Positions 2,816 through 21,349 of a DNA stretch of 21,349 bases are shown piece by piece (positions within the stretch are counted from its first letter, which is position 1; each line of letters begins with the position of its first letter). The DNA lies in the IMG/VR virus record IMGVR_UViG_3300031772_000338, positions 1-21,349 of that record; one strand, written 5' to 3'. The notes below the pieces were generated by a model that saw nothing but the letters and a program-made list of their open reading frames with translations, did no database searches and was not told where the DNA came from. The DNA comes from a virus. The position numbers and the translations under genes are program-made.

Positions 2816-4879
2816 TCAGATCTTGTTCAGCTTGGGGAGCTTCTGGCTCGCCTGCCACTCGTTGATCTGCTTCAGGATCTTATTGAGCGGAGGGAAGCCG
2901 GGGTTGAAAGCCTTGGTCAGAACCGCCTTCATGGCCTCCATGGCCTCATCGTCATCCCGGTCTGCGTACTTACGCAGCTTGTCCTCAGCCTCTTGCATCG
3001 CCTTGAGGAAGATCCCCAACCTGTAGATGTTGGGGCTCCTCTCCCTCTTCGCATCCTTCTGGTCCTGCTGCGTCAGGTAGCTAGACAAGATGAGAAAGAA
3101 AGTCGAGACCTTGGCGTTAGACGCCGCCGACTTGAACTGGTCCTTGTGTTCTTCGGTCTGAGCCTTCCACTCCTTCGCATCCTCAGGGTCCATATTCTTG
3201 GTCGGGTCCGCAGGCTTACCCTCCTCGAATCGACTCAGGTGCTCTTCGTCACCGGACGCTTGAAGGATGCGGTCAGCTTCCTGCGCGCTTATCACGGTCA
3301 GTTTCGTTACCTCTACGGGCTTCTGTTGAAGGGTCGGCTGAAGCGTGATCTCATCCCCAGATTTCGTGTACATGGGAGTCTCGCTGTACCGAAGTACTCC
3401 GCCCTTCTTGCTACTTGGACGAACATTCCCACTGGAAACATAGACATTCCAAGCCTCGCCGGACTTCTTCGGGGCACTCTCAACCGTAAGTACACGACCC
3501 TTACCTAGGGTGGGCCCATCAACCTTCACTTGCTGGCCTTCACGCAAACGCATGAAGATTGCGGCATCAGAAGAGGAAGCGGCCTTGAAATTGTCCTTAT
3601 GCTCCTCTGTCATCGCCTTCCACGTAGCGGCATCGTCCTCAGACATGTTCTTGGTCGGGTCCGCAGGCTTACCCTCCTCAAACCGAGTGAAGATGTTTTG
3701 AGCTGCTTCCTTGAAGGCTTTGTCGTAATCTGAAGCGTAGTGCCCACCGTTGTAGACATCCTCGTCCGCAACCTCTACCTCGAACTTACGCCAAGCATCT
3801 TCGGCTTTCTTACCTGACATGATCGTCTTGGTGCTGGGCCAATAGAGAACGAGGTCACCCTTCTTGAAGGCTGCCCCATCCACGTCTTTGCCAGGGTACT
3901 TGGCATGAATCCAACGAGGGTCACCAGAAGCAGCCTCTTTGATCTCCTCACTCGCTGAGAAGCTTAGAGCTGGCTTGCCACCTGACATCGTAGCGAAAGT
4001 CTTGAACACACGGACCAAGTAACCTACTTCAAGGTCATAGGCTCGACCGACCATCCCAAGCCCATCCACAACCCCTAGAAGGGAAAAGAACACCTTCTTC
4101 GTGTTCCCTGAGGCGTAGGCAGCCATGGCCTTACGAGTGCTGATCAAGATCTTGTCGAGACCCTCACCAACTACAGCGTCCCCTTGAGGGGGCGGGGGAG
4201 CTAGAGTAGCCGCTGCCTTGAACTCGTCCTTGTGCTCTTCGGTCTGAGACTTCCACTCTTTGGCGTCCTCAGGGCTCATGTTCTTGGTCGGGTCCGCAGG
4301 CTTACCCTCCTCAAACCTGCTACGACGGGCATCGTCCCCAGCAGAGGCCGTAACCGCCCCTGCAATGGCTTGAAGGGCCTCTGCAATCTTCGACGCACTA
4401 GGACTTACCCCACGTCGTTCTTCGTCTTCAATGACGCTGGCGACATGCCGTAGCGCAGTTGCAACATCACTTCCCGTGGCTAGTTTTCGCATGGTCATCT
4501 CCTGAGGCGCTACTTGAGGGGCCCGACGGTCAAATTGGCGGATACGCACATCCTTGAGTGCAGTCTCTAACTCCACGACTTTCTCAGGTCGAAGTCCTTG
4601 CTTCAACTCCTCATAGTCGATACGAGACGCAGCCAAGGCCGTCGCATCCAAAGCTTTGTCGAGACGAAATAGAGAGTCAGGGATCCCGTAAAGAAGGTCC
4701 CCGGCAATCTCATGGATGTGAGCTTTATGGGTAGAGCCCATAATCAGACGGGTAGCCTGGTCTATGTACCCTTTGAGCTGCGAACATCGCAATCGAGCAT
4801 CGGTCAGCTCTTCCATCAAATAGACGAGAGCCGACCCCTCTTTGTGGCCAGGACCAGACCCGCTGATTGGATGTGTCAT
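2816..4879 (-). CDS. Multidomain protein with three identical-type 36-aa modules (687 aa)
   Basis: No family is recognised overall, but the architecture is clear. Residues 1-185 are helical and charged. Module 1 is at 188-223, a second domain at ~235-395, module 2 at 399-434, a strand-rich SH3-like segment at ~442-520, module 3 at 550-585, and a helical C-terminus at ~590-687. Each module begins RFEEGKPADPTKNM and continues as a predicted helix ending HKDxFKxA. The second domain contains VDGLGMVGRAYDLEVGYL, and KKGDLVLYWP near 339-348. No signal peptide or transmembrane segment is seen. The ATG lacks a good ribosome-binding site; a small CTAACGGGTTAG hairpin lies just upstream. Placed after a 380-aa structural-type gene, it may be a virion or assembly protein, but this is inference from position only. 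Confidence 0.8.
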   Translation of the reverse strand: MTHPISGSGPGHKEGSALVYLMEELTDARLRCSQLKGYIDQATRLIMGSTHKAHIHEIAGDLLYGIPDSLFRLDKALDATALAASRIDYEELKQGLRPEKVVELETALKDVRIRQFDRRAPQVAPQEMTMRKLATGSDVATALRHVASVIEDEERRGVSPSASKIAEALQAIAGAVTASAGDDARRSRFEEGKPADPTKNMSPEDAKEWKSQTEEHKDEFKAAATLAPPPPQGDAVVGEGLDKILISTRKAMAAYASGNTKKVFFSLLGVVDGLGMVGRAYDLEVGYLVRVFKTFATMSGGKPALSFSASEEIKEAASGDPRWIHAKYPGKDVDGAAFKKGDLVLYWPSTKTIMSGKKAEDAWRKFEVEVADEDVYNGGHYASDYDKAFKEAAQNIFTRFEEGKPADPTKNMSEDDAATWKAMTEEHKDNFKAASSSDAAIFMRLREGQQVKVDGPTLGKGRVLTVESAPKKSGEAWNVYVSSGNVRPSSKKGGVLRYSETPMYTKSGDEITLQPTLQQKPVEVTKLTVISAQEADRILQASGDEEHLSRFEEGKPADPTKNMDPEDAKEWKAQTEEHKDQFKSAASNAKVSTFFLILSSYLTQQDQKDAKRERSPNIYRLGIFLKAMQEAEDKLRKYADRDDDEAMEAMKAVLTKAFNPGFPPLNKILKQINEWQASQKLPKLNKI
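3125..3232 (-). repeat. RFEEGKPADPTKN module, copy 3
   Basis: Encodes residues 550-585 of the 687-aa protein. It begins RFEEGKPADPTKNMDPEDAK and ends EEHKDQFKSA. A 32-base block (3195-3226, plus-strand start ttcttggtcgggtccgcagg) is identical in all three copies. Confidence 0.95.
3578..3685 (-). repeat. RFEEGKPADPTKN module, copy 2
   Basis: Encodes residues 399-434 of the 687-aa protein. It begins RFEEGKPADPTKNMSEDDAA and ends EEHKDNFKAA. The identical 32-base block is at 3648-3679. The match to copy 1 extends to about 40 bases. Confidence 0.95.
4211..4318 (-). repeat. RFEEGKPADPTKN module, copy 1
   Basis: Encodes residues 188-223 of the 687-aa protein. It begins RFEEGKPADPTKNMSPEDAK and ends EEHKDEFKAA. 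The identical 32-base block is at 4281-4312. It follows an Ala-rich helical stretch and precedes a Pro-rich linker (APPPPQG). Confidence 0.95.
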
Positions 4880-4924: not shown

Positions 4925-6067
4925 TCAAGACTGAAAAGCAGCCGGGAACTCCTCCAAGACAAGCCTCTTGAAATCGTCACTTTCCGCAGCAAAAATAGCT
5001 CGAACCACGTCCAAACGATCCGAGTAGTTGAGTTGGATTCGAGCCAAACGACGCTTCCAGTGCTCATTGAAGTCGTAGTCACCAGGAAAGTCCGAACACA
5101 AAGCTTTAGCCACGATCCTGCGCGCATCCATAGTGCCCACGGGTACCTGACTCGGAGCGTCTACAAGTTTCCCCACCTGACTAGGAGCGTCTGCAAGTTT
5201 CGACTCCACCTGACTTGCAAAAGCACGCTTGGGTCCGTTGGTATTGCGGAAAGAGATCCCCTCAGCCGAAACTTGACTCATGACAACTTTCCCACTGTCC
5301 AACCCACTCAAGTCTGTGATCTGTGTGCTACCACCGCCACCCACTGAGAGGGTTGTAGTGAAACCGTCCGTCTGTGTGGTCCCAGATACCTTATGTACCT
5401 TACCTACAACCTGATGGACATCGCTGACTGGTTGCACATAAGCTGACCTCTTCGCTTCCTTCGTTAGGAGGTACTCCTCCCTGGCTTCGGGGGAAAGACG
5501 TGAGAGGTACTGATTCTCGGAAAGGCCCTGCCCAGGCTCAATCTTGACCGACTCCGCCTTGGAGATAGCTGCCCCTGCATGGGAGAGGTCAGTCGTGGCC
5601 TTGGTCGGGGTCTTAAAGGCTCGTGCGACAGGCCGGGGGTCCTGAGGTTCAATCTCAGTACTCAGAGCCCGCTGACCCGCCGTCTGCATAACCGAAGCCG
5701 TCCGGTCACTCCGAGTCATCACAACCCGCTCATCAGACTGGACCGTAACGGCCATGCTCTTTGACGGAGGCTGAGTACTACTCTGTGTGGTATTCACCGC
5801 AGGACGGATTCCGATGTTCGCCGAAACCGGAACTTGGGCCAAAGCGTCCGGGTCATACTGAGAGCTGGGCGTCAACCAACCAAGGCGAATCGCACCACGA
5901 AGCGTAGGCATCGTATACCTAGCCTCATTAAAAGCAACCGTCGTACCATCGAACAAGATCTCCGACCCCTCAGGGATGTTCACCCCAGTCGAACCTAGAG
6001 CGAAACTCCTGGTTGAGGTGAAACTCTCGAACTTGTTGGGTACATATTTGATCTGTTCTGTATTCAT
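4925..6067 (-). CDS. Conserved-type phage structural/head-associated protein (380 aa)
   Basis: A perfect AGGAGG lies upstream of the ATG, fixing the start. The N-terminal ~65 residues form a strand-rich domain (SFALGSTGVNIPEGSEILFDGTTV, then TMPTLRGAIRLGWLTP). The 'dG-t-v ... mp-LRGAI-GW' pattern is one I associate with conserved proteins of phage head gene clusters; no function is assigned to it. Residues ~85-300 are Ser/Thr/Gln-rich and probably disordered, with a Gly-rich stretch (SVGGGGSTQITDLSGLDSG) and a ten-residue tandem repeat (DAPSQVGKL). The C-terminal ~65 residues look folded and helical (FNEHWKRRLARIQLNYSDRL, then FKRLVLEEFPAAF). It lies downstream of the HU gene and its terminator and 45 bases upstream of the 687-aa gene. 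A head-internal or head-completion role is plausible but unproven. Confidence 0.8.
   Translation of the reverse strand: MNTEQIKYVPNKFESFTSTRSFALGSTGVNIPEGSEILFDGTTVAFNEARYTMPTLRGAIRLGWLTPSSQYDPDALAQVPVSANIGIRPAVNTTQSSTQPPSKSMAVTVQSDERVVMTRSDRTASVMQTAGQRALSTEIEPQDPRPVARAFKTPTKATTDLSHAGAAISKAESVKIEPGQGLSENQYLSRLSPEAREEYLLTKEAKRSAYVQPVSDVHQVVGKVHKVSGTTQTDGFTTTLSVGGGGSTQITDLSGLDSGKVVMSQVSAEGISFRNTNGPKRAFASQVESKLADAPSQVGKLVDAPSQVPVGTMDARRIVAKALCSDFPGDYDFNEHWKRRLARIQLNYSDRLDVVRAIFAAESDDFKRLVLEEFPAAFQS
5146..5205 (-). repeat. 30-bp tandem repeat (two copies) in the 380-aa gene
   Basis: Two adjacent 30-base units start acctgact(c/a)ggagcgtct on the plus strand, at 5146-5175 and 5176-5205. They encode the repeated DAPSQVGKL-type decapeptide. 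A third partial copy (acctgact) starts near 5209. In-frame units allow copy-number change without frameshift. Confidence 0.85.
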
Positions 6068-7271: not shown

Positions 7272-8144
7272 TCAGACGCGGGTGACAACCAAGCGGGTGA
7301 GACCGCGTGGGTTGAAGGCACCGATGCCGATATTCTCAAAGCAACTGAAGCCAATTGTGCGGGCCTTGGGGTCATCCGCCGACAGAACGGTCAGTTCTGT
7401 ACGGACAGGGAACCTGCCGAAGTTCTCCGGCTCAGCACACACGTAGATGAAGCCAGCGGGTACCAAGCGGCTCGTGATGATCTGAGCGCCCCAGAGGGTT
7501 GCTTGGAGACCAGTCTTGAGCAACACAGCCTGCGACTCGATATCCAGGATGTCGCGACCGAACTTGCGGATATCCGCGTAGTCGGTTGCGTTCATGTAGA
7601 TACGGGCCACACGAAGGTCGTGACGCTCGATTTCCGCGAAGGCATCCGCAAGGACGCTCGGGGAAACAGGGGCCACCACGTTGATGTCCGGGTTCGTCTG
7701 ACCAGCGAGGGTATCGAAGCCCGAGACAGCAATGCTGTCAAGAACCGCAAACACACGCTCGTCTTCCGCAGCCTGGATCTGAGCCTTCGCCAGGTCCTGA
7801 GCACGCTCGATGAGATCGAAACGACGCTCCTTGATCTGGGTGAGGGGGATCTCAGGGTTCGAGGCGATCTCGAACAAGGGGAAGATCACACGACGGGGCT
7901 TCTGGATCGCGAGGATGTTTTCACCCTCTTCACCAACCACGTACGCTGTGACATCCGGGTCCTTGTCATAGATCGGCAAGGCTCCGTCGGGAAGCTGCTC
8001 GACTGCGAAGGTCTTGCGACCCACAGCCGTGTAGTCACGACGCAGACGAAGGGGCTGAATCATCGAAGCAGCAAGCTTGGCTCGACCAGCGGCTGTCTTG
8101 ATGTACTCAGAAATGATCTGTTGCTTGATGTCGTTGCTAACCAT
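7272..8144 (-). CDS. Major capsid protein, HK97 fold (290 aa)
   Basis: The protein has the layout of a phage major capsid protein. There is a short helical N-terminal arm (IISEYIKTAAGRAKLAASM, then PLRLRRDY), an E-loop-like segment with ALPIYDKDPDVTAYVV and a P-domain helix (RRFDLIERAQDLAKAQIQAA). The A-domain core contains RIYMNATDYADIR and LWGAQIITSRLVPAGFIYV. The closing strands are TIGFSCFENIGIGAFNPRG. I recognise this set from HK97-type capsid proteins of large phages. At 290 aa it is compact, with no long delta domain, consistent with a separate scaffold protein upstream. GGAAGGA precedes the ATG by about ten bases. It follows the decoration-like gene by 17 bases, and two terminators follow it. 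The TTTATAC element upstream of the scaffold gene could drive this three-gene unit. Confidence 0.93.
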   Translation of the reverse strand: MVSNDIKQQIISEYIKTAAGRAKLAASMIQPLRLRRDYTAVGRKTFAVEQLPDGALPIYDKDPDVTAYVVGEEGENILAIQKPRRVIFPLFEIASNPEIPLTQIKERRFDLIERAQDLAKAQIQAAEDERVFAVLDSIAVSGFDTLAGQTNPDINVVAPVSPSVLADAFAEIERHDLRVARIYMNATDYADIRKFGRDILDIESQAVLLKTGLQATLWGAQIITSRLVPAGFIYVCAEPENFGRFPVRTELTVLSADDPKARTIGFSCFENIGIGAFNPRGLTRLVVTRV

Positions 8145-8161: not shown

Positions 8162-8779
8162 TCAGACCCTAAGGTCAAGCACGAGCATGGGGGTGTTGGC
8201 GTCAGGGGACGCCTTCACAACACCCATGATGGTTGGCGTTGCACCCTGCAAAGTCTCGTAAGAGTCTGCCGAGCGATTTGTGAGTAGTCCGTTGGCACTT
8301 GCATAGAGCAAGTCACCAGCGGCGTAGGTCAAAGCTGTTCCAGCGGAACCGCCCTGAAGTTGCTGTGTCTCGTACAGGGTCACCCCTACGCACGAGCCCG
8401 ATCCACTCACATACGGTCCACGACCGCTGGCTACGCCAGGCGTGTTCTCGTATGCATTGCCCACAGCGTCATTCAAGAAAATGCCCAGGGGGCGAATTCC
8501 TGCAAGGAAGGTGGGGCCCGAGGTCACCACTGGTCCGCCAGTGATGTTGTTGCCAGCCTGGGGACGGGTAAAGGCGACAGAACCGCCCAATACTCCGACC
8601 TTCGTGATGCTGGCAAGCGTTGTGGATTTGACGTTGGTGCTCGTGTAGACCGTAGGATTCGCCTGGGTGAACGCATCTGCTGCCAACGCGCCAACGCTGT
8701 TGCGTGTGACGACGTGGAAGAGCTGTACTCGACCAGAAGTTTCCTTGAAGTCACCCGAGCTTTGTCCGCGCAATGACAT
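8162..8779 (-). CDS. Decoration/head-stabilisation-like protein (205 aa)
   Basis: A strong AAGGAG lies five bases before the ATG. The protein is almost entirely beta-type and Gly/Ser/Thr/Ala-rich, with no Trp and one Cys. The C-terminal part reads LTYAAGDLLYASANGLLTN, then IMGVVKASP and a final strand LVLDLRV. This pattern, a YAxGDxLxxSxxGxxT loop followed by xxGxVxxxP, also occurs in the three tandem paralogues at 19.1-21.0 kb. Its place directly upstream of the major capsid gene and downstream of a scaffold candidate is where phages usually encode capsid decoration or stabilisation proteins. The assignment rests on position and fold type, not on a named family motif. A head fibre base is an alternative. 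Confidence 0.75.
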   Translation of the reverse strand: MSLRGQSSGDFKETSGRVQLFHVVTRNSVGALAADAFTQANPTVYTSTNVKSTTLASITKVGVLGGSVAFTRPQAGNNITGGPVVTSGPTFLAGIRPLGIFLNDAVGNAYENTPGVASGRGPYVSGSGSCVGVTLYETQQLQGGSAGTALTYAAGDLLYASANGLLTNRSADSYETLQGATPTIMGVVKASPDANTPMLVLDLRV

Positions 8780-8872: not shown

Positions 8873-10297
8873 TCAAGAACCGAATGTAGACCTGACATCA
8901 GGTGCAGTGCTCCACATCGAAGAAAGGTTCGAGACTTCATCTCGATTACCTGCCGAAGGGAGACCACCAAGCTGGCTCACACCCTGGGTAGGGCGAGTTC
9001 CAACGGTACGGGTCGAGGCTGTGCGAACCACATGAGCCTGCTTCTGCTGGCTCTGTGCTTGCTGAGCATCCTCAGACTCTTGAGTGGCGAAGAGCTGCTT
9101 GAGAACAGCATCATCTGCCGTCATGGAGAACTCACCCATATCCATGGTGGGGGCTTCCATCTCGATACCTACGTCAGAAACGCAGGGGTCGTCTTGCTGA
9201 GACAGCATTTGGTCGATGAGCTGGGCATCGGCCTGTTGCTGAACCTGGGCCTGTTGCTGAACCTGGGCCTGTTGCATAGGAGCCTGGCCCTGTTGCATAG
9301 GAGCCTGGCCCTGTTGCTGCATGGCAGGAGCCATACAAGCTTGGGCGGCAAGAGCCGCTGCCTGAACAGGGTCCTTACCGTCGGCCATCGCCTGCTTCAT
9401 AGCGAAGTAGATGGCCTTGGCTTGCTTCTCCTGTTGCTGGGCCTGGTCCTGCTGAACCTGGTCCTGGGCCTGCTTCTGCTCTTGCTGACCCTGGTCCTGT
9501 TGACCCTGGTCCTGCTGAGCCTGGATCATCTGAGGGGCCTGGCCCTGGAGACCCTGTTGTGCCTGTTGCAGCATAGCGGCAACTTGCTGCTGCATCTGTT
9601 GCAGTTGAGCAATCTGCTGTTGCTGTTGGCCTTGCTTCTGCTGACCCTGGTCCTGTTGACCCTGGTCCTGTTGCTGGGCCTGCTTCTGCTCTTGCTGACC
9701 CTGGTCCTGTTGACCCTGGTCCTGCTGAGCCTTCTTCTCAAGCCAAGGTGGGAGGCCCTTGCCATCCCACTTCTCGCCCTTGTCGTCCTTCTTGTCGTCC
9801 TTCTTGTCGTCCTTGTCCTGGGCCTGCTTCTGACCCTGGTCCTCTTCGTCCTGGTCCTCGGCTGCAAGACGCTTGTAGGTCGCAGCAAGGTGGATATCAG
9901 AGAGGTGCATCAGAGTCTCAGCCTGAGCTTCCACAGACCCCTCTGAGGCGGTCTTAGGGAGCATGGCGCGAGCCACACTCACAGCAAGGGCTGCCTTGGC
10001 AAGCAGAGTAGCCTCACTGCTGGCAGTCTTCTCAGGGTGGTTGAAGGTGTCAGAACGCATTTCGGGCATCCCGATTTCGTTCCGTTTGACTTGGTCCCCA
10101 CTGTACTCAGCCTCCCAGGTACCTGCCGATGGATGTGGATCCTCAGCAAAGGTAGAAGGGTCCCCGATGACATACTTGTCAGCAGAGGGTTGGGCCTTGA
10201 CGTGGTCCTGATTCATCAGGTAGGGGTCCGCATTTTTGGTATGATTCGCCTTCTTGGCGATCTCATCGCGGTTCCAGGTAGTGCGCTCGCGGGGCAT
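8873..10297 (-). CDS. Gln-rich scaffold-like head assembly protein (474 aa)
   Basis: Three regions are visible. Residues 1-150 hold a conserved-looking part containing TWEAEYSGDQVKRNEIGMPE, DTFNHPEKTAS and an Ala-rich helical stretch (LLAKAALAVSVARAMLPKTA). Residues ~185-355 are extreme low complexity, dominated by Gln with DQGQQDQGQQEQKQAQ-type repeats, preceded by a Lys/Asp run (KDDKKDDKKDDKG). The C-terminal ~110 residues are acidic, then Ser/Thr-rich. The position, directly between protease and decoration/capsid genes, is the classic place for scaffold protein. I associate the KRNEIGMPE motif with proteins at this location in related phages. The repeated KTAS-E context might be protease sites (inference). 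AAAGGA precedes the ATG, and a TTTATAC element lies about 31 bases upstream. Confidence 0.75.
   Translation of the reverse strand: MPRERTTWNRDEIAKKANHTKNADPYLMNQDHVKAQPSADKYVIGDPSTFAEDPHPSAGTWEAEYSGDQVKRNEIGMPEMRSDTFNHPEKTASSEATLLAKAALAVSVARAMLPKTASEGSVEAQAETLMHLSDIHLAATYKRLAAEDQDEEDQGQKQAQDKDDKKDDKKDDKGEKWDGKGLPPWLEKKAQQDQGQQDQGQQEQKQAQQQDQGQQDQGQQKQGQQQQQIAQLQQMQQQVAAMLQQAQQGLQGQAPQMIQAQQDQGQQDQGQQEQKQAQDQVQQDQAQQQEKQAKAIYFAMKQAMADGKDPVQAAALAAQACMAPAMQQQGQAPMQQGQAPMQQAQVQQQAQVQQQADAQLIDQMLSQQDDPCVSDVGIEMEAPTMDMGEFSMTADDAVLKQLFATQESEDAQQAQSQQKQAHVVRTASTRTVGTRPTQGVSQLGGLPSAGNRDEVSNLSSMWSTAPDVRSTFGS
9464..9732 (-). repeat. 59-bp perfect direct repeat and Gln-codon repeats in the scaffold-like gene
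   Basis: Bases 9464-9522 and 9674-9732 are identical over 59 bases and encode QAQQDQGQQDQGQQEQKQAQ. The offset is 210 bases (70 codons), so recombination between copies would delete or duplicate an in-frame block. Nearby, 21-base units around 9270-9312 (GQAPMQQ) and 18-base units around 9238-9275 (AQVQQQ) are also tandemly duplicated. Confidence 0.9.
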
Positions 10298-10342: not shown

Positions 10343-11956
10343 TCAGAGGCCCATCGAGAACAGCTTGCTCTTCTCGACCAGCAAGGCCCTCTCCGAGTCC
10401 GTTGGTACCCGACCCATGACTTTGCGACATGCTTCGAGGAACCGATTCACATTTGGATATGGGGCCATTCCGCCTACGGCGATCACGGTCCTATAAACTC
10501 TAGCCTCACCGGCCATTGACGCTCTCTTCTGGAATCGGCTGATAAGACGATCCACAACGAGTATCTCGGGGCCGGTAAACCTGTTGGCCTTACGGACAGC
10601 CTCCCACCCTCCGATAGAGTGGAAAATCATGCCTGCAAGAATCGACCGGGCAACAAGAACGTCACGAACATTAGCGAGTACCAACCTAGCTCGGTCACGC
10701 CACTCGGAATATTGCAGTGCCGACTTGATGAGCGACTCATTGGACTGATTCTCGTCCAGGATGGACTTTGTCTTGTCCGCCTCAGACTTCGAGAGTTGAT
10801 CTTTGAGTTTCTCCGTAACCTTGTCGACTAGAGTATTATACAGATCATCGACGTGCTTCTTGAGCGGATCGGTCTCTGACTTTGAATCTTGAGCCGGAGC
10901 CTCCAAGCCATCGTCAAAAGAGACCTTGCGTTGGCCAAGTCTCTCCTGGTGAAGTTGAGTCGCTCTACTCAGAGTTGAATTCGCAACTGGAGCCCTCAGA
11001 TACCCTATGGATGGCCCGTCGTAAAGATAGGCAAGATTATCCGAAGGGATCGCCCTCTGCGGTTGACGACGTGCGGCCTTCTGCATGAAGGTCGCGTCAC
11101 CAACTTCAACTGGCATCTGAAAGGCTGCCTGCATCTTGTATCTGGTCTCGACTGCCTCAGCCAACTTCGGGTCCAAGATGTTACGGAGTACCGCACCCCT
11201 AAAGGCTGGATTCGCTACCCAAGAAGCCTCGATAAACTTAACCGACCCTGGCTCATCTGACACGTGCCCACAGAGTTCGGCAACCTTACGGCTCTGACCA
11301 CGTGCATCCAAGAAGGTGTGACCCTTCTCGTACTTGATGTGCCCGCAGAGTTGGGGTTCATCGGCGGCGACGTTACCGCACTTAGAACAGATCGTTGCAG
11401 AAACAGAACACCCCATAGAGAGGGTGCCAAGATGACCCGTCGTGATCGCAGCTACCAAAGCCTTGTGCTTACGCTCTGTAGCGACAAGGATATCGATGTA
11501 GATCGAGTCTCCAATGTCCCTAGCGGCTGCGTCTATGATCCGACCCTTACTTAGCTCAGGTAGCTGGATATGCTCGACGTAGTTTTGACCGCCAACAAAA
11601 GTTCGGAAAGAGGAGAGAAGAAGCTTGCGCTCAAAGGCATCGTGGTTGTTGTTGACGTACTTCGTCGAACCAACCCCAATGTAGAAGTCAGGGTATTTAC
11701 GATCAACCTGAACCCCGTCGAACATGACCTTACCCAGAGGCATCCCTGTTGGGGTCTCTGTGTCAACGGACGCCACGATTGTGCAATGACTGAGGAGGTA
11801 TTTAGAGGCGTCGTACTGACCTAGAACCACCTGAGTCGCTTTGCGTACTGCAAAGGTCGGAGTGGGGCTGATCGCAACATGCCGAATCTCCTCCCACCCC
11901 TGTGAGGTCATCTCCGGGTGAATAACCGTAGCCTTGGCGTACTTGGAAAAGGCCAT
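10343..11956 (-). CDS. Prohead protease with Cys/His insertion and C-terminal scaffold-like extension (537 aa)
   Basis: Residues ~55-255 match the caudovirus prohead maturation protease fold. NNNHDAFERKLL is followed by a candidate catalytic His129 in NYVEHIQ, then SKGRIIDA and YIDILVAT, then GTLSMGCSV with candidate nucleophile Ser180, and FIEASWVANPAF. Immediately after the Ser comes a metal-binding-type insertion: Cys190-x2-Cys193 (ICSKCGN), Cys204/His206 and Cys229/His231. I recall this SMGC...CSxCGN arrangement from proteases of other large phages. Residues ~330-430 are polar and helical (DDLYNTLVDKVTEKLKDQL). A helical C-terminal domain (AVGGMAPYPNVNRFLEACRK) follows. The ATG touches the preceding TAA. 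It would cleave scaffold and perhaps capsid inside the prohead. The catalytic residues are proposed by pattern, not alignment. Confidence 0.88.
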   Translation of the reverse strand: MAFSKYAKATVIHPEMTSQGWEEIRHVAISPTPTFAVRKATQVVLGQYDASKYLLSHCTIVASVDTETPTGMPLGKVMFDGVQVDRKYPDFYIGVGSTKYVNNNHDAFERKLLLSSFRTFVGGQNYVEHIQLPELSKGRIIDAAARDIGDSIYIDILVATERKHKALVAAITTGHLGTLSMGCSVSATICSKCGNVAADEPQLCGHIKYEKGHTFLDARGQSRKVAELCGHVSDEPGSVKFIEASWVANPAFRGAVLRNILDPKLAEAVETRYKMQAAFQMPVEVGDATFMQKAARRQPQRAIPSDNLAYLYDGPSIGYLRAPVANSTLSRATQLHQERLGQRKVSFDDGLEAPAQDSKSETDPLKKHVDDLYNTLVDKVTEKLKDQLSKSEADKTKSILDENQSNESLIKSALQYSEWRDRARLVLANVRDVLVARSILAGMIFHSIGGWEAVRKANRFTGPEILVVDRLISRFQKRASMAGEARVYRTVIAVGGMAPYPNVNRFLEACRKVMGRVPTDSERALLVEKSKLFSMGL

Positions 11957-15329: not shown

Positions 15330-18300
15330 CTAGAAGCGGCTATCCTCAGCCGGGGCGTCCTTCTTGATCTTCAGGTTCATGTACTTCGCAAGCTTGTCGG
15401 CAATATCGGTCTTTTCTGCGAGTACCCGACCAACTTCACCGTAGATTGCGCGGACAGACTCGTTGAATACCGCGTCATTGACGGTGAACATGTCTCGTTC
15501 GATCTTCTCCTTCGTGTCTGCCGGATCGATGTTGAACATCTCAAGGATAAGGTCGATGGAGACCGAACCCTTCTGGTAGAGATTGAAGAGGGCGTCGTAA
15601 GTGTCCTGACTGTCGCGTAGTGCCAATCGAGTGAAGCTGAGTCTAGGGATCAGGACAACTTCCTGACCCCACTCGTCAATCTCCACAAACCCCTTGCGTC
15701 GAGCAACAGGTTTGAAAATGGTCTCCTCTACATAGTCCTGAATGATCTCCCGGAACAACATGTACCGGGTATTGATCACTTCGAGCTTGACCCTATCGCC
15801 AGCAAACGTGCTCTCTCCATTGAGGAGAGACTCAGTCACACCCAAACCAGCGTAGAGCTGCTTGTCTGTGATCTCGTACTCGGAGGACAGGTCAAGAAGG
15901 CGGTCCCTCGAACCAATCTCCTCCCAATGGACCTCGTAGTTGGCCACGATCGAGTAGTCAGGATCGACAAGTGACAGGTCAACCTGCTCCCGTAGGTCAT
16001 CCGTATCCACGTCACTGAGATTCTCTCCCCAAATTACTCGCTTGGGTGTCATCGCACGACTTGCAATCAAAGTCTGTGCCTGACGAAGTTTTTCGCGATA
16101 GTACAAGACCCGTAAGCAGTTGAAACTACTGACGTTTTCGGAAAAGAAGGTATGGTCCTCATGCACGTTGAGGCTATAGACCGGACCTTCATGCTGTGCC
16201 GAGTTAACCTTCGCAACACGGTAGTAGAGTTTACCTTCTACAAACTTGTGTCGAGATCCGGAACGACCGTTCTTCCACACATCAGGCTCCTTGCGCTTGG
16301 CGAGAAACCCTGACTCAAAGAACCGCTTGACCGATGGGCCGTGTGTAAAATGAACCGCGTACATCTCTTTGGCGAAGCTCATACGCCCATCGGCTTGCTT
16401 CACCCAACGACGCTCGGTCTTACCCTTCGAGACGGGGAAGCCTAGCGAGGTACAGAGAAGGAACGTCTGGTCCATGAGCACCTTGTTGGTACCGTTGAAC
16501 CGAACAGAGACGCTGCCATCTTTCTTGGTAGTTACGTCCCCGTCTGAGTCCACAAAGCCTCGCAACAACCCTTCGAGGAACTCTTTGGGGCTGTCGAAGA
16601 TCCACCCTGGCAAGTGCTTGTCTTCAGAGGTGTGGCCGAAGTTGGTGGCCATCCAACGGACAAGAGCGTCTTGACGACCACCCATATGGACGCCAGAAGC
16701 CATTGAGCTTTCGGACCAAGACACCTTGAGCTTATCCAACATGGGTTTGATGTGCTGCTCAATGGACACTACAGACGCAGGTTCATTGGGGCCGTACGTG
16801 AAGCCTAGGTCCCCGTAATCAAGCCCACCCTGCTTGGAGATATGACCGTCCCCAAGCCAGTAGCCGAGGAAATACCCGAAATCTGTGTCTAACGTCAACC
16901 ATCGAGGGAAGCTCTTGGTGTAATCAGCCGAAGTTGATACACGAACACCCTTGACGTTTGGATCAAAGACAATCGACTTACCTTTAGTGATAACGGTATA
17001 ATACCCAAAAGAGGTTAGCTGAGAACGAATCTCCTTGAGTGCAACAGGGTGCAAACCAAAGCGCTCGCAAACTTCAGCGGATCGCATAGTTACGGGGCCA
17101 GTCAAAGTAGAGGCCCAAGCAAGGATTGAGTTCAAATCTCCGGTACGGCCAATCTTCCTCGGATCCGTCTGCTCCTTTTTATAGGAGACTGAAAACATGT
17201 GTTGGGCCTTATCGATTACGCTCAACTGAAGCTCGGACTCCCCACCAGACTTCTTAGCTTTGTAGTCCCCACTGATGCCGTCCATGAAGGAGGCCAGGTC
17301 TACAGACTGACCATAGGACTCGGTAAGAGGTATCTGAGCCACGCCGAGGTAGTCTCCGGGTTGGATGTCCTTCGCTTCCAGCTCAACCGTCACATCCCCA
17401 CGAAGGGCAGGGTAACGATGGTCTGAAGTTGAAGCGATGGTCTCCCCGATCTTAGCAACCTCAAGGAGGGTTACGTCGCCTGAGAATTTGCGAACACCGA
17501 TCTCAAACTCTCGCCAAACCCCCTTGTGACTGAGAACCGTATCTGTGTCGGGGTCCAGGTCTTCGATGGGTACCTGTTGTACCTCACCGTTACGCTTGGT
17601 AAGCACCTCAGTGCCTGCAAGGTGACAACGGTCGAGTAAACTAGACCCCAACTCCTCACCTGCATTGCGCCTAGCAGCCAGGTGATAACAGAAAGAGCCC
17701 TCATCAGGGTCTGTGCCAAGAGGGATCATCTTGCCAGATTCGATGAAATCACGAACCTCGACGGGCATCTCCATGGCCATCTCTTCAGCGCCTTCGTCAC
17801 CGGACTTTGCACGCTCAATGAGTGCTCGGTCTCGGTCACTAGGGATCAGCTCGATCCGAACCTTGTCTGTGAAACTGAAGGTCGTGAGCTTCACTTGGTC
17901 AATGGGCAGGATGACAAGACGGGACCACCCGCTGTAGTGCTTCTGGTAGTACCCCAACTCCCGTTCCTCACGGTCAGGAAGTTCGGATACCACATCCTTG
18001 TCTCTCTCCTCGCCCGTCCCATCATCATGAAGGACAGCTTCCTTCACTCGCTCAACCTGGTGGCCTACGTTCTCAGGCACATCCACCGTTGAGTCCTCAG
18101 CAAAAATGAAGACGTTGCCATCAAGCCAGTAGTGGCGGCTAGCCGTAATCAAACGCTGGAACAGCTTGATTCGGCTACACATCTGAGTGAAAAAGGAATG
18201 GATGTAGTTCGCATAGTGGTCAGCATCCCTGAAACCATCAGGGCACTTGCTAGGCTTAGGCTTCGCAAGACGAACCTTGCTCATCGGCAGTTCAGTGTGC

Positions 18301-18647
18301 AGGTCAATAGCCTGCGCTACGATAGGGTCTGTGTGATAGAAGTGCCGGTAAATCTCCCTCTTCTCTCGTAGGGACTGAGGCAGCTCAAGGAAATCAGTAG
18401 AGAGCTGAGGGGAGAAGAACGGGGCGGTGCCTGATTGGACAGTGTTAGCACCTGAGATGTTGTTGGTGCCGAACGAGCCGTAAGACCCTCCACCAATATT
18501 CGCCTGAATTCGACGTGCAACTTTCTCTTTCTCAGAGAGGTTGGTGAGACGCCCCCGTGAAGCGTAAGGCGCATGCGGGTACCTTCCAGGTACCGTATTG
18601 GCCATAACACTCCGGGTGTTGTTTACATTCGTGTAGCGAGTTGACAT
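15330..18647 (-). CDS. Portal protein precursor interrupted by an intein (1105 aa; 602 aa after splicing)
   Basis: Extein residues 1-340 and 844-1105 read as a phage portal protein. Key segments are REIYRHFYHTDPIVAQAIDL, the join SSLLDR/CLRVLYYREKLRQAQ, SRAMTPKRVIW, EQVDLSLVDPDYSIV, LLDLSSEYEITDKQLYAGLG, LEVINTRYMLFREIIQDYVE and LSFTRLALRDSQDTYDALF. The last parts cover the stem/wing and clip-adjacent helices. The portal forms the dodecameric DNA-entry ring at one capsid vertex and nucleates head assembly. Residues 341-843 are an intein (separate entry). The ATG overlaps the preceding stop as TGATG, so translation is probably coupled. The 602-aa spliced length is normal for large-phage portals. 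Recognition is from remembered conserved segments, with good agreement across the C-terminal half. Confidence 0.93.
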   Translation of the reverse strand: MSTRYTNVNNTRSVMANTVPGRYPHAPYASRGRLTNLSEKEKVARRIQANIGGGSYGSFGTNNISGANTVQSGTAPFFSPQLSTDFLELPQSLREKREIYRHFYHTDPIVAQAIDLHTELPMSKVRLAKPKPSKCPDGFRDADHYANYIHSFFTQMCSRIKLFQRLITASRHYWLDGNVFIFAEDSTVDVPENVGHQVERVKEAVLHDDGTGEERDKDVVSELPDREERELGYYQKHYSGWSRLVILPIDQVKLTTFSFTDKVRIELIPSDRDRALIERAKSGDEGAEEMAMEMPVEVRDFIESGKMIPLGTDPDEGSFCYHLAARRNAGEELGSSLLDRCHLAGTEVLTKRNGEVQQVPIEDLDPDTDTVLSHKGVWREFEIGVRKFSGDVTLLEVAKIGETIASTSDHRYPALRGDVTVELEAKDIQPGDYLGVAQIPLTESYGQSVDLASFMDGISGDYKAKKSGGESELQLSVIDKAQHMFSVSYKKEQTDPRKIGRTGDLNSILAWASTLTGPVTMRSAEVCERFGLHPVALKEIRSQLTSFGYYTVITKGKSIVFDPNVKGVRVSTSADYTKSFPRWLTLDTDFGYFLGYWLGDGHISKQGGLDYGDLGFTYGPNEPASVVSIEQHIKPMLDKLKVSWSESSMASGVHMGGRQDALVRWMATNFGHTSEDKHLPGWIFDSPKEFLEGLLRGFVDSDGDVTTKKDGSVSVRFNGTNKVLMDQTFLLCTSLGFPVSKGKTERRWVKQADGRMSFAKEMYAVHFTHGPSVKRFFESGFLAKRKEPDVWKNGRSGSRHKFVEGKLYYRVAKVNSAQHEGPVYSLNVHEDHTFFSENVSSFNCLRVLYYREKLRQAQTLIASRAMTPKRVIWGENLSDVDTDDLREQVDLSLVDPDYSIVANYEVHWEEIGSRDRLLDLSSEYEITDKQLYAGLGVTESLLNGESTFAGDRVKLEVINTRYMLFREIIQDYVEETIFKPVARRKGFVEIDEWGQEVVLIPRLSFTRLALRDSQDTYDALFNLYQKGSVSIDLILEMFNIDPADTKEKIERDMFTVNDAVFNESVRAIYGEVGRVLAEKTDIADKLAKYMNLKIKKDAPAEDSRF
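16119..17627 (-). mobile_element. Intein with LAGLIDADG homing endonuclease in the portal gene (503 aa)
   Basis: The intein starts at Cys341 (block A, CHLAGTEVLT) and ends at Asn843 before extein Cys844. Block B is TSDHRYPAL with His410; IQPGDYLGV follows near residue 435. A helix-turn-helix-like stretch (MRSAEVCERFGLHPVALKEI, from residue 521) could contact DNA. The two LAGLIDADG motifs are FLGYWLGDGH (Asp600) and LRGFVDSDGDV (Asp702), about 100 residues apart as expected for a monomeric two-motif enzyme. Block F is VYSLNVHEDHTFF, and block G ends SSFN/C. Removal leaves LLDR-CLRVL, a continuous portal sequence. All splicing residues are present except the usual penultimate His, which is Phe842. 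The endonuclease acids are intact, so mobility into intein-free portal alleles is plausible. Confidence 0.95.
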
Positions 18648-19099
18648 CAGTCGTCCCCATAAAGATCATTCAAGTCTGCTGAGACAGTGCTTCTAGCCAA
18701 CAGGCTGTCAATTACAGCTTCTGTATCAGAGGATTCGAAAAGACCGTACACGTCACGGGTTGTCTGAGCCTTGGCTGCACGACGACTGGAGTCTGCCTCT
18801 CGTCTCTCTTGAATTTCCTTACGCTCCTGTGCCTCCCTAGCGTTCTTCTTCGTATTGAAGAGGGCTCTGTCCACTGCCTCAGTACGTTTGGCCCCTTGGA
18901 CCACGGAGCCAGCAAACCGACGACCGGCATTGGAGATAGCCACATAGTTAGGAGTCGCATCCTCTGCCGGATTACGGCGAGCTTTGGCGTACATTAGACC
19001 GTACACGCGATGCAGTTTCTCCGCACTTGCTACCATCTCCCTACGGAGTTTGGAGGCTTCCTTGAACAAGTCCTCTTGAGACATGGAGTCTATATTCAT
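18647..19099 (-). CDS. Small charged helical protein upstream of portal (150 aa)
   Basis: No family recognised. The sequence is mostly helical and highly charged: LFKEASKLRREMVASAEKLH near the N-terminus, a possible coiled-coil centre rich in Lys, Arg and Glu (NTKKNAREAQERKEIQERRE), and an acidic C-terminus (LNDLYGDD). There is no Cys, Trp, membrane segment or signal peptide. The ATG overlaps the stop of the upstream paralogue by four bases (ATGA), and its own TGA overlaps the portal ATG, so it is locked into a translationally coupled chain with the portal. A portal-associated or assembly chaperone role would suit the position but is inference only. Confidence 0.75.
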   Translation of the reverse strand: MNIDSMSQEDLFKEASKLRREMVASAEKLHRVYGLMYAKARRNPAEDATPNYVAISNAGRRFAGSVVQGAKRTEAVDRALFNTKKNAREAQERKEIQERREADSSRRAAKAQTTRDVYGLFESSDTEAVIDSLLARSTVSADLNDLYGDD

Positions 19100-19611
19100 A
19101 TGGATGTCTGTATCCCCAGGAAGTTCCGGTTCGACGCCTTTGGGGTTTGCGCCACGAAACCGGAGAAGAAAGCGGGTGCCCTAGGGTCCCCAGAGAGAGT
19201 TAGCTCGTCCTCTTTGGTCCAGAGCCCACGCTTAGAGAAGTACAGGATGTCTTGAGCAGCGTAGACCAGAGGGACAAGCGGGCCGGACACACGAGATGCA
19301 TAGGTGTAACGCTCGTAAGACGACGTAGCGATGAGGCTACCCCCTGATAGCATAGTTGCGTAACGGTAGTAGAGTTGAGATCTAGTCGTGGCTGCAAAGT
19401 CGTCTCCAGGCTCATCTGAGCCCCAAACCAGAAATCCGCCGTAGAGCCCCTGAGAGTAAGTGACCACTCTTTCATCAGGTGTCGAACCCACCCACTGTAC
19501 GCCCTGACCACCAGGCCATCCTTGGCCAACCATGCTCTGAGAGACGACCACAGTTTGGGTGTCGCCCTTGAAAAACACGACGCATTCTCGTGACCGCAGA
19601 ATTTCTGGCAT
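19096..19611 (-). CDS. Capsid-surface-like paralogue C (171 aa)
   Basis: This is the third, in transcription order, of three tandem paralogues. Shared landmarks are an N-terminal RSRECVVFFKGDTQTV, GWPGGQGVQWV, LYGGFLVWGSDE, SYERYTYASRVSGPLVPLVY, DILYFSKRGLWTKEDELTL, GDPR and a closing strand FLGIQTSI. The protein is all-beta in character, about 170 aa, with no signal peptide or membrane segment. Its C-terminal half matches the pattern of the 205-aa decoration-like protein at 8.2-8.8 kb (YAxxDxLxxSxxGxxT then xGxVxxxP). The ATG is two bases before the stop of paralogue B. It diverges most from the other two in the DPR-to-end region. A head-surface or vertex protein is inferred. Confidence 0.78.
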   Translation of the reverse strand: MPEILRSRECVVFFKGDTQTVVVSQSMVGQGWPGGQGVQWVGSTPDERVVTYSQGLYGGFLVWGSDEPGDDFAATTRSQLYYRYATMLSGGSLIATSSYERYTYASRVSGPLVPLVYAAQDILYFSKRGLWTKEDELTLSGDPRAPAFFSGFVAQTPKASNRNFLGIQTSI

Positions 19612-19613
19612 GG

Positions 19614-20138
19614 TTAGATCGATGTCTGAATGGTTAGGTAAAAATTGTTCTCAACGGTTGGAGTCTGCGCCACTGAACCGACGTAGTACCCGTTTGACCC
19701 CCTAGGGTCTCCAGAGAGGGTCCACTCATCCTGATTGGTCCAGTACCCTCGAAGGGAAAACCGAAGCCGTTCTCCGGTCACATATGTCAAAGGCACCAAA
19801 GGACCGGATACACGAGATACATAGGTGTAACGCTCGTAAGTTCGGGTAGCGATTAACCAGCCTCCGACTCCAAGAACCGCTGTACCGTACGTTGGCTGCC
19901 AGGCCGTAAGCGATGTCAGTTGGTCAGAGGCCTCGTTAGAACCCCACACAAGAAACCCGCCGTAGAGGCCGTCAGAAGGTCCCACCAGGAACTCATCATG
20001 GTTGGAGTCAACCCACTGAACGGCTTGTCCTCCTTGCCACCCTTGCTGAGCCAGCGTGGCCGTGATGGACACGGGGAAAGCATCACCTTTGAACAAGGTG
20101 TAGCAATCACGGTCTCTCGGGAATTTAGTGGTCATCAT
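19614..20138 (-). CDS. Capsid-surface-like paralogue B (174 aa)
   Basis: The middle member of the triplet, with DRDCYTLFKGDAFPV, GWQGGQAVQWVDSNHDEFLV, LYGGFLVWGSNE, TYERYTYVSRVSGPLVPLTY, LRFSLRGYWTNQDEWTL, SGDPRGSNGYYVGSVAQTP and LTIQTSI. It is clearly closest to paralogue C in the first two thirds and to paralogue A around the DEWTL/DPRG loop. Two adjacent ATGs (20136-20138 and 20133-20135) overlap the stop of the HNH-like ORF; AAAGG lies upstream, and the first is chosen. A longer open frame upstream runs through the HNH gene in another frame and is not used. All-beta, no catalytic motif, presumably a virion protein. Confidence 0.78.
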   Translation of the reverse strand: MMTTKFPRDRDCYTLFKGDAFPVSITATLAQQGWQGGQAVQWVDSNHDEFLVGPSDGLYGGFLVWGSNEASDQLTSLTAWQPTYGTAVLGVGGWLIATRTYERYTYVSRVSGPLVPLTYVTGERLRFSLRGYWTNQDEWTLSGDPRGSNGYYVGSVAQTPTVENNFYLTIQTSI

Positions 20139-20479
20139 GCAACCTTTTGCATACGTGCTTGAGTGCGAATACGGTGACAGCAAGCACAAACCAACTCGCA
20201 CTTAGCCAACTCAAGAAGGACAAGAGACCATTTATTCAAGTTGTTGAGCCACGACTGTCGATTTCTTTTGGCAGTACCCCTCTGCTCATTCAGATGGGTA
20301 GACCGGTAGTTTAAGGCCCCCAACCTGTTACGGATTGTCACATCAGGATTGGCCCGACGAAGACGAACACGCTCCTGATCGCATTGAAGGCAATGAGCGC
20401 CTCTCCCGGTAGAGGACTGCGTACTCTTGACAAAATCTTCAAGGTTTTTCGGGGTTTGGCATTTCGAGCATATTTTCAT
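20135..20479 (-). CDS. Degenerate HNH-endonuclease-like ORF (114 aa)
   Basis: The N-terminus MKICSKCQTPKNLEDF with Cys4/Cys7 and Cys30/Cys33 (HCLQC) is the zinc-ribbon start of a common small phage HNH family. The end, ELAKCELVCACCHRIRTQAR, matches that family's final motif, normally VCANCHR. Two features are odd. The segment that usually precedes this, holding a CxxC pair and a catalytic DH, is absent: the text jumps from NRQSWLNNLNK to WSLVLLELAKC. The usual Asn of the ANCHR motif is Cys100. The ORF is still open and joined to both neighbours by four-base overlaps. It is probably a deleted, inactive homing endonuclease lodged between paralogues, perhaps retained as a DNA-binding peptide. 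The family comparison is from memory. Confidence 0.75.
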   Translation of the reverse strand: MKICSKCQTPKNLEDFVKSTQSSTGRGAHCLQCDQERVRLRRANPDVTIRNRLGALNYRSTHLNEQRGTAKRNRQSWLNNLNKWSLVLLELAKCELVCACCHRIRTQARMQKVA

Positions 20480-20997
20480 ATTGACACCTGGATTCCCATA
20501 TAACCAGAAGTCAATACACTAGGTGCCTGGGTCACGTACCCAATGTAATAGGTGTTAGCGCCCCGAGGGTCAGAGGATAAAGTCCACTCGTCCTCAGACG
20601 TGAAGTACCCACGTAGAGAGAACACCAACCGGTCACTTGCAGCGTACACAATAGGTACCAGCGGGCCAGGTCCTGTCCTTGAGGCGTAGGTGTACTTCTC
20701 AAAAGTGGTCGTAAGGATATGCCAGCCACCCGCACACGCAGTGGCGAATCGGTAGTAGGGTTGGTTCCGAGTCATCGAAGTGTATTGGTCAGACTCCTCG
20801 TCCGAACCAAACAACACGAACCCAGCGTAGTACCCGTCAGAGATCCCTACAGAAAACTCGTCTCTGATGGAAGGTACCCAACGGACACCTTGGCCGCCAC
20901 GCCAACCAGATACTACCATCGGCTCGCTTACAACCACAGGGTAGGTATCGCCCTTAACGAGCACTACGCAATCCCGAGTTCGTGCCTGCTCCGGCAT
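20476..20997 (-). CDS. Capsid-surface-like paralogue A (173 aa)
   Basis: First of the triplet. Landmarks are TRDCVVLVKGDTYPV, GWRGGQGVRWVPSIRDEFSV, YYAGFVLFGSDEESDQYTS, FEKYTYASRTGPGPLVPIVY, RLVFSLRGYFTSEDEWTL, SSDPRGANTYYIGYVTQAP and MGIQVSI. The start chosen is the ATG at 20997, overlapping the preceding TGA as TGATG. A longer reading frame adds 15 residues that overlap the upstream gene and lack counterparts in the paralogues. Its stop overlaps the HNH-like ATG. Fold type and family are as for the other two: an all-beta, single-domain, decoration- or vertex-type virion protein by inference, not recognised as a named family. Confidence 0.8.
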   Translation of the reverse strand: MPEQARTRDCVVLVKGDTYPVVVSEPMVVSGWRGGQGVRWVPSIRDEFSVGISDGYYAGFVLFGSDEESDQYTSMTRNQPYYRFATACAGGWHILTTTFEKYTYASRTGPGPLVPIVYAASDRLVFSLRGYFTSEDEWTLSSDPRGANTYYIGYVTQAPSVLTSGYMGIQVSI

Positions 20998-21349
20998 CAG
21001 ATCGTCTCGACTTCCTTCTTGCGACCCGGCAGTTGTGACCACGCCGAAACGAGGGTGCTAAGGAGCATAGTCTGAACTGGGCTGCCCTGTACAACCTGTT
21101 CCCAATCTCCACCACTCTGATTGAACGCCAAACGGATCGAGAGGAAGTCGTCTTTGGTCAGATGAGTGTCAGGTCCAGACGAGTGGTCAATGAACTGGCG
21201 GATCAGACGGTCGGCAAAAACCAGCGGTTGGCTCGGTTCCGAGTCGAAAGCGGTCTTCGAGTTGAGCTTGTCGATGACCTTGCCATCGACTAGGTACACG
21301 TCCTCCAAAGCTGGAACAAGATACTGACTACGAAGGGTCGAGGCTTCAT
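20997..21349 (-). CDS. Unrecognised protein, C-terminal part (5' end outside window)
   Basis: The minus-strand frame is open to the right edge of the window without a stop, giving at least 117 codons. No start is needed inside the window, although a TTG at 21308 and an out-of-frame ATG at the edge exist. Visible parts are TLRSQYLVPALEDVYLVDGK, KTAFDSEPSQPLVFADRLIR, KDDFLSIRLAFNQSGGDWEQ and a basic end (LPGRKKEVETI). The mix of helix and strand looks like a normal globular protein. Nothing identifies a terminase or other known packaging protein, although this is where a terminase might be expected upstream of a portal. Its TGA overlaps the ATG of paralogue A. Confidence 0.7.
   Translation of the reverse strand, partial: EASTLRSQYLVPALEDVYLVDGKVIDKLNSKTAFDSEPSQPLVFADRLIRQFIDHSSGPDTHLTKDDFLSIRLAFNQSGGDWEQVVQGSPVQTMLLSTLVSAWSQLPGRKKEVETI

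Follow-up and report, generated by a model that had tools for sequence, protein, structure and literature searches.

Why would a phage protein carry three nearly identical copies of one short peptide between clearly different domains? The question is raised by a 21,349-base virus record with phage head genes for a capsid protein, a protease and a portal (the window, that is, the whole stretch of DNA analysed), in which a 687-aa protein is encoded at 2816-4879 (-). The preliminary description had reported three near-identical modules in this protein with spacings of about 175 and 115 residues, and both statements hold. Each module comprises 37 residues, starting at residues 188, 399 and 550, copies 2 and 3 being 81% and 89% identical to copy 1 over 36 residues, and the stretches between them measure 174 and 114 residues. 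With E-values from 5.9e-22 to 2.8e-17 the three copies are not a product of chance, and a search for a fourth across the whole window found none. Copy 1 (residues 188-224; 4208-4318 (-)) reads RFEEG...FKAAA and has the upstream flank VTASAGDDARRS, copy 2 (residues 399-435; 3575-3685 (-)) reads RFEEG...FKAAS after FKEAAQNIFT, and copy 3 (residues 550-586; 3122-3232 (-)) reads RFEEG...FKSAA after LQASGDEEHLS.

Pfam and PHROG scans gave the 687-aa protein no family of its own. By comparison with relatives it can be mapped as D1-M1-D2-D3-M2-D4-M3-D5, an architecture of what we call class A and propose to be an inner-head polyprotein. The helical N-terminal domain D1 (residues 1-187; 4319-4879 (-)) is a stand-alone gene in four other loci, and the helical D2 (residues 225-312; 3944-4207 (-)) is rearranged in five, one of which (L050) has it twice in the order D1-M-D2-M-D3-D2-M. 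D3 (residues 313-398; 3686-3943 (-)), a GDPRWIHAKYPGK domain predicted to be beta/alpha with a core pLDDT of about 92, is shuffled in ten loci, and the C-terminal helical domain D5 (residues 587-687; 2819-3121 (-)) is a separate gene of 118-130 aa in four. D4 (residues 436-549; 3233-3574 (-)) is poorly predicted, with pLDDT mostly below 50, and no relative of it was found among the fetched loci. The earlier claim that the modules separate clearly different domains thus stands, as D1-D3 and D5 match different gene sets and are reordered or separate in relatives, D4 being the domain without a relative. A structure prediction had also been suggested as a check; in the resulting model each module has a confident short helical core (pLDDT 76-91 in ten-residue blocks) with flanks below 50, and a fold search with the whole model returned generic helical hairpins only, with no domain named.

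The module is not a peculiarity of this protein. The profile search from the three copies that the preliminary description had called for was run, the initial profile being built from the window's copies, and it gave matches in other contigs. In a wide profile scan the module was found in 72 viral loci, mostly of huge phages, on contigs of up to 536 kb, and about 60 related huge-phage contigs carry it in otherwise unrelated proteins; the initial impression of similar segments in further proteins of large phages was correct. The outcome that would have refuted the observation, namely that the modules form part of a single known repeat fold and are confined to this protein, was looked for and did not occur. 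Beyond phages there is almost no spread: the module appeared in two metagenome-assembled bacterial contigs, and a plasmid scan found none. Among 50,697 phage records a single one has it, the uncultured LR745208 (485 kb), and a literature search with the module's peptide string gave no match. All 50 records that were searched whole carry the module, with one to five matches each, the shorter of these records being possibly fragments. Since 46 of the 50 also have the window's protease and 46 a relative of its major capsid protein (80-97% identical), the module marks one huge-phage clade. The nearest named relatives of the capsid protein belong to Tunturiibacter phage Tunturi_5 (48%) and Bacillus phage G (38%), in whose head regions no convincing match to the module was found.

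Across the 50 records and the architecture map, the module sits in proteins of unrelated architecture, which supports the earlier suggestion of a portable tag, whether it serves for binding, spacing or recognition by a protease. Two of these proteins (L013 and L080) contain a DUF2958 domain. Several other features were observed in this set. The large distal module proteins of 16 loci end in a conserved domain that contains two GLYGF-type repeats; one of these proteins (L012) starts with a C39-type peptidase domain. The string (Q)PLxTRRDYG in the N-terminal parts of L011, L012 and L072 resembles SMIQPLRLRRDY near the N-terminus of the capsid protein (7272-8144), and a CEKLPEGPMRDNC linker in L013 and L088, with up to three per protein, often ends near KTA[SG].

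Among 84 distinct copies of the module, mean pS is 0.66 within proteins and 0.76 between them, whereas pN is 0.16 and 0.22, respectively, and no pair of distinct copies has a pS below 0.1. A8, D9, P10, W22 and K34 are invariant in the 43 aligned copies. Since synonymous sites are near saturation and yet the peptide is conserved, selection acts on the module peptide itself. This contrast and the invariant residues argue against both a recently mobile DNA element and a neutral spacer. An in-frame element like the Rickettsia palindromic elements, spread by DNA copying and tolerated by the protein, would explain dispersed in-frame copies in many genes and tandem arrays, but it would not explain saturated synonymous sites under a conserved peptide or the near confinement to one phage clade. 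As the ends of the window's modules, when checked, had no inverted repeat either, we consider such an element very improbable. Still harder to believe is that the module belongs to the OAS1 C-terminal domain family. The Pfam match to PF10421 (OAS1_C) is of gathering level (E=4.2e-6, 26.9 bits vs a cut-off of 19.9, residues 405-436), but it involves only positions 141-172 of the 188 in the profile, which is the module itself, and a PDB search with the module profile gave nothing significant, the OAS1 chain having E=1.4. This match is best read as a shared DPT-N-helix-W turn. A Pfam match to DUF2280 likewise covers only the turn-helix of the module; it and the OAS1_C match were taken as convergence, and a match to the HMG box was sub-threshold.

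The position of the module within proteins bears on a further alternative, a passive spacer, meaning a soluble acidic or helical linker that is reused by recombination and has no specific partner and no cutting. The module does lie between shuffled domains, and the low-confidence flanks in the model would be consistent with disorder. Spacers tolerate change, however, whereas in the module W22, A8-D9-P10 and K34 are fixed and pN is a fraction of pS. Proteins carry one to four copies, often in tandem, at N-terminal, internal or C-terminal positions, and the terminal copies separate nothing, so that we regard the spacer as improbable. In nine of the 32 non-class-A proteins, and in none of the 27 of class A, the first module begins at residue 6-17; the last module falls within 15 residues of the C-terminus in ten proteins, including L062, which is itself clipped by the end of the fetched stretch. 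These N- and C-terminal placements suggest that the module is more than a spacer, and thus we propose a targeting role modelled on the capsid-targeting sequence (CTS) of phage T4 (PMC5694885). The N-terminal position of the T4 type is not the rule here, the module being internal or C-terminal in most non-class-A proteins and in all 27 of class A. Such an additional role is favoured because N-terminal copies occur in non-capsid-adjacent proteins.

What surrounds the module is as telling as the module itself. In 100 copies read together with their flanks, F-K-[TSA]-A-[AS] is the usual end of the module, and on the upstream side an A-[AS] with a short acidic stretch after it is frequent. Of 80 independent modules, 45 have an A[AS] followed by an acidic residue 3-18 aa upstream, a pattern that 400 trials with positions drawn at random in the same proteins yielded 10.0 ± 3.0 times (maximum 19). 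On the downstream side, 60 of about 73 have an A at K+2, and in tandem arrays (L059) adjacent copies share a single junction. The pattern has exceptions: in 19 of the 80 independent modules (about 24%) the preceding 30 aa contain no A[ASG], in the window K is missing from its expected position upstream of two of the three copies, and some modules end in KKDA, KER or DSS instead of KxA[AS]. Soon after the A[AS] junction a short DPWK peptide, often forming the last residues of the protein, was seen in ten loci; it is possibly a second small tag.

Motifs of this kind are also concentrated in head genes beyond the modules. Counted on simple longest-ORF gene calls, with expectations from composition shuffles, KTA[ASG] occurs 76 times in 20 head clusters plus the window, against 8.4 expected (about 9-fold), and six times in 400 kb off the head genes of six phages, which is chance level (5.2 expected). 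Only poly-Q precedes the KTA tripeptide, which is among the most enriched in the head clusters. With the modules masked, the module proteins still hold 67 KTA[ASG] against 5.0 expected (about 13-fold), and scrambled versions of the motif are not enriched in these masked proteins. When one protein per family is taken, [KR]TA[ASG] amounts to 12.0 against 2.7 in head clusters and to 10.0 against 9.5 in the background. We infer that the motif is a cleavage site, and we place the putative scissile bond at A|[AS].

The enriched families are those of the module protein, a Q-rich scaffold-like protein, a 380-aa neighbour and the capsid protein; enrichment was sought and not found in the portal, 8165-8779 and 19096-21042 paralogue families. 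The Q-rich protein (8873-10297 (-)), presumably a scaffold by its composition and position, has three [KR]TAS motifs (9014-9025, 9944-9955 and 10019-10030), and the 380-aa neighbour (4925-6067 (-)) has one RTAS (5693-5704), its family holding 11 [KR]TA[ASG] against 1.7 expected. The major capsid protein (7272-8144 (-); phrog_2522, E=1.5e-51; N-terminal IKTAAGRAKLAAS) carries a K-T-A-A near its N-terminus (8088-8099 (-)) that is conserved among orthologs and is weak evidence by itself; because the entire N-terminus is conserved, it was dropped as proof of a cleavage motif. A PHROG scan of the neighbours returned nothing for most of them. The portal ORF (15330-18647 (-), 1105 aa) seems to contain an intein (sequence ...VHEDHTFFSENVSSFNC...), and its similarity to portal proteins picks up again after about residue 860. 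At 19096-21042 (-) there are three nearby paralogues of about 170-190 aa each, without the head motif, and scans of 19099-19611 and 19617-20138 gave no family.

In Tunturi_5, a cultured acidobacterial phage, a broader form of the motif, [KR][TSAEQG]A[ASG], is enriched in the annotated ejection protein (9 vs 1.4 expected), in gp348 (7 vs 1.5) and in gp350, and is absent from gp336-338. The non-head region of this phage is itself moderately enriched in K[TSAEQ]A[AS] (13 vs 4.0), which weakens the contrast between head and background. One Tunturi_5 protein annotated as an ADP-ribosyltransferase, gp205 (L222:44708-47269), has four K[TSAEQ]A[AS] sites against 0.23 expected, and by analogy it may be packaged and processed cargo like Alt of T4.

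A candidate for the enzyme that would cut at these sites is encoded in the window at 10343-11956 (-). Two features of head-maturation proteases of clan SH, the profile match and the fold of T4 gp21 or assemblin, are found in this ORF: it matches phrog_18299 (E=3.3e-10 over residues 108-256), and its model has T4 gp21 (5jbl) as best PDB match, with Z 8.2 and an rmsd of 3.2 over 126 residues, followed in ranks 2-19 exclusively by herpesvirus proteases. It is 41% identical to Tunturi_5 gp331, annotated as head maturation protease, and the invariant H57, H129 and S180 suggest the active site. Moreover, between residues 258 and 406 A294 and A295 are the sole invariant residues in 26 aligned orthologs, with K or R preceding them in nearly all, in a region (272-323) where the pLDDT is below 50. 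This K-A-A (residues 293-295; 11072-11080 (-)), at the boundary between the catalytic and the C-terminal domain, is a candidate self-cleavage site, its features being those expected if the protease cut itself by the same K-x-A rule. Orthologs in at least five relatives (G012, G017, G037, G047 and G048, among others) have frames of 900-1483 aa with the protease in pieces, which suggests inteins or other insertions in many relatives.

Of the possibilities listed in the preliminary description for a portable tag, the protease-recognition segment is thus the favoured one, given the spread to unrelated proteins, the bracketing of the modules, the concentration of the motif in head genes and its occurrence between the two domains of the protease itself. 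Virion proteomics, in which cleavage near the modules was to be looked for, was sought for this clade and none was found, nor does the Tunturi paper mention mass spectrometry. We think it probable, though far from assured, that the module is part of a protease-bracketed targeting and linker cassette excised by the head protease, and that the co-packaged inner-head proteins form a processed polyprotein. The module would be the core of a portable cassette of about 42-50 residues, used in head-packaged proteins of this one clade and laid out as x-A|[SA]-(acidic, 4-13 aa)-[ES]-RFEEGKPADPT..M..EDA..W.......KDxFK-[TSA]-A|[AS]. The uncut chain would first join prohead assembly; the predicted head-maturation protease would then cut K-x-A|[AS]-type sites on either side of each module, freeing the domains, and the module peptides would be discarded. 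Fusion, fission and reordering, as seen for D1, D2, D3 and D5, should be tolerated by a chain whose parts are later separated. Since the module also begins or ends unrelated proteins, it most likely would have a second function as a tag for capsid targeting or scaffold binding, to be cut off once the protein has been imported.

A tag that is never cut has to be weighed at this point. The module could be a short helical binding peptide, with a face formed by W and F-K, that docks to one common partner (the scaffold, the inner wall of the capsid or the protease) and tethers inner-head proteins. A conserved core of 37 residues with five invariant positions far exceeds the needs of a protease, the helical core is confidently predicted, placement at N- and C-termini is typical for tags, and the helical body and KD..K tail are common to other tag families. 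Docking alone leaves unexplained, however, the A|[AS] junctions on both sides of the module, the motif enrichment across head proteins and its presence at the protease boundary, and we consider it unlikely as a full account. It is compatible with the cleavable cassette, in which it fits best as the targeting half.

The other tag families extend the picture. A second one, FKxxNPxLSxexLxEIAxqWexNKDVVKDK, is found in nine class A or D1 proteins and is C-terminal where D1 is a separate gene. The link between its profile and that of the module is suggestive and weak (hhalign probability 34%, E 4e-4 in a one-profile database). A third, KFERG...PPESVKK, has a head like that of the module and a different body. 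It is conceivable, and to us somewhat less probable than the excised cassette itself, that interchangeable protease-bracketed tags (RFEEG/PADPT core, NKDVVKDKH, FERG...PPESVKK) constitute a general packaging system of a widespread huge-phage clade, in which almost any domain could be fused into Gag-like head polyproteins, imported as one chain and released in the capsid as effectors and nucleoid proteins.

These results bear on the question of how the capsid of a huge phage comes to be loaded with many kinds of protein. If the excised cassette is real, a tag that can be read from the sequence together with a predicted cut motif would make it possible to list, from the DNA sequence only, which proteins an uncultured huge phage is likely to package. 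In addition, the fast-shuffling multi-domain proteins of huge phages would be explained as processed polyproteins, and a cleavable packaging tag would become available for capsid engineering. The cleavage rule K/R-x-A|[AS] is predicted for the gp21/assemblin-like proteases of a capsid lineage to which Tunturi_5 and, at a greater distance, Bacillus phage G belong.

Several known systems share parts of this design. The predicted fold of the window's protease resembles herpesvirus assemblin, with a sequence identity of only about 10%. Herpesviruses cut at an A|S scissile bond, and their sites lie in protease-scaffold precursors and not in portable cassettes. The T4 CTS is a short portable peptide found on several unrelated inner-head proteins and on Alt, with a protease site, and is removed in the prohead by gp21 (PMC5694885). 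The module, too, occurs in proteins of unrelated architecture, which are presumably packaged, and a putative protease motif is enriched at its borders. However, the T4 peptide has 10-20 residues and is N-terminal, whereas the module has a core of 37 residues with a conserved helical body, takes any position in one to four copies, often in tandem and often bracketed on both sides, and its cleavage is predicted. In the giant phage SPN3US, inner-head proteins are also cut repeatedly by a phage protease, gp245, with a P3-x-P1 motif A-X-E and a preference for Ser at P1' (PMC10052503), a layout like that of the putative motif of our clade. The identified gp245 cuts yield N-terminal propeptides, self-cleavage aside (PMC10052503), and the long propeptides are thought to target (PMC5694885). 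The motif of our clade would be K/R-x-A|[AS] and not A-X-E, and what is repeated there is a conserved cassette placed between domains. Finally, the polyvalent proteins of phages are multi-domain, fast-shuffling and predicted to be packaged and injected, and their authors drew a parallel to viral polyproteins, proposing release by embedded peptidases (PMC5512222). The module proteins share with them the multiple distinct domains in fast-shuffling combinatorial architectures, and to judge from gene position and motif they may be packaged and delivered to the host as well. They differ in that one conserved cassette, in several copies, separates the domains, and in that the proposed cutter would be a trans-acting head protease instead of an embedded domain.
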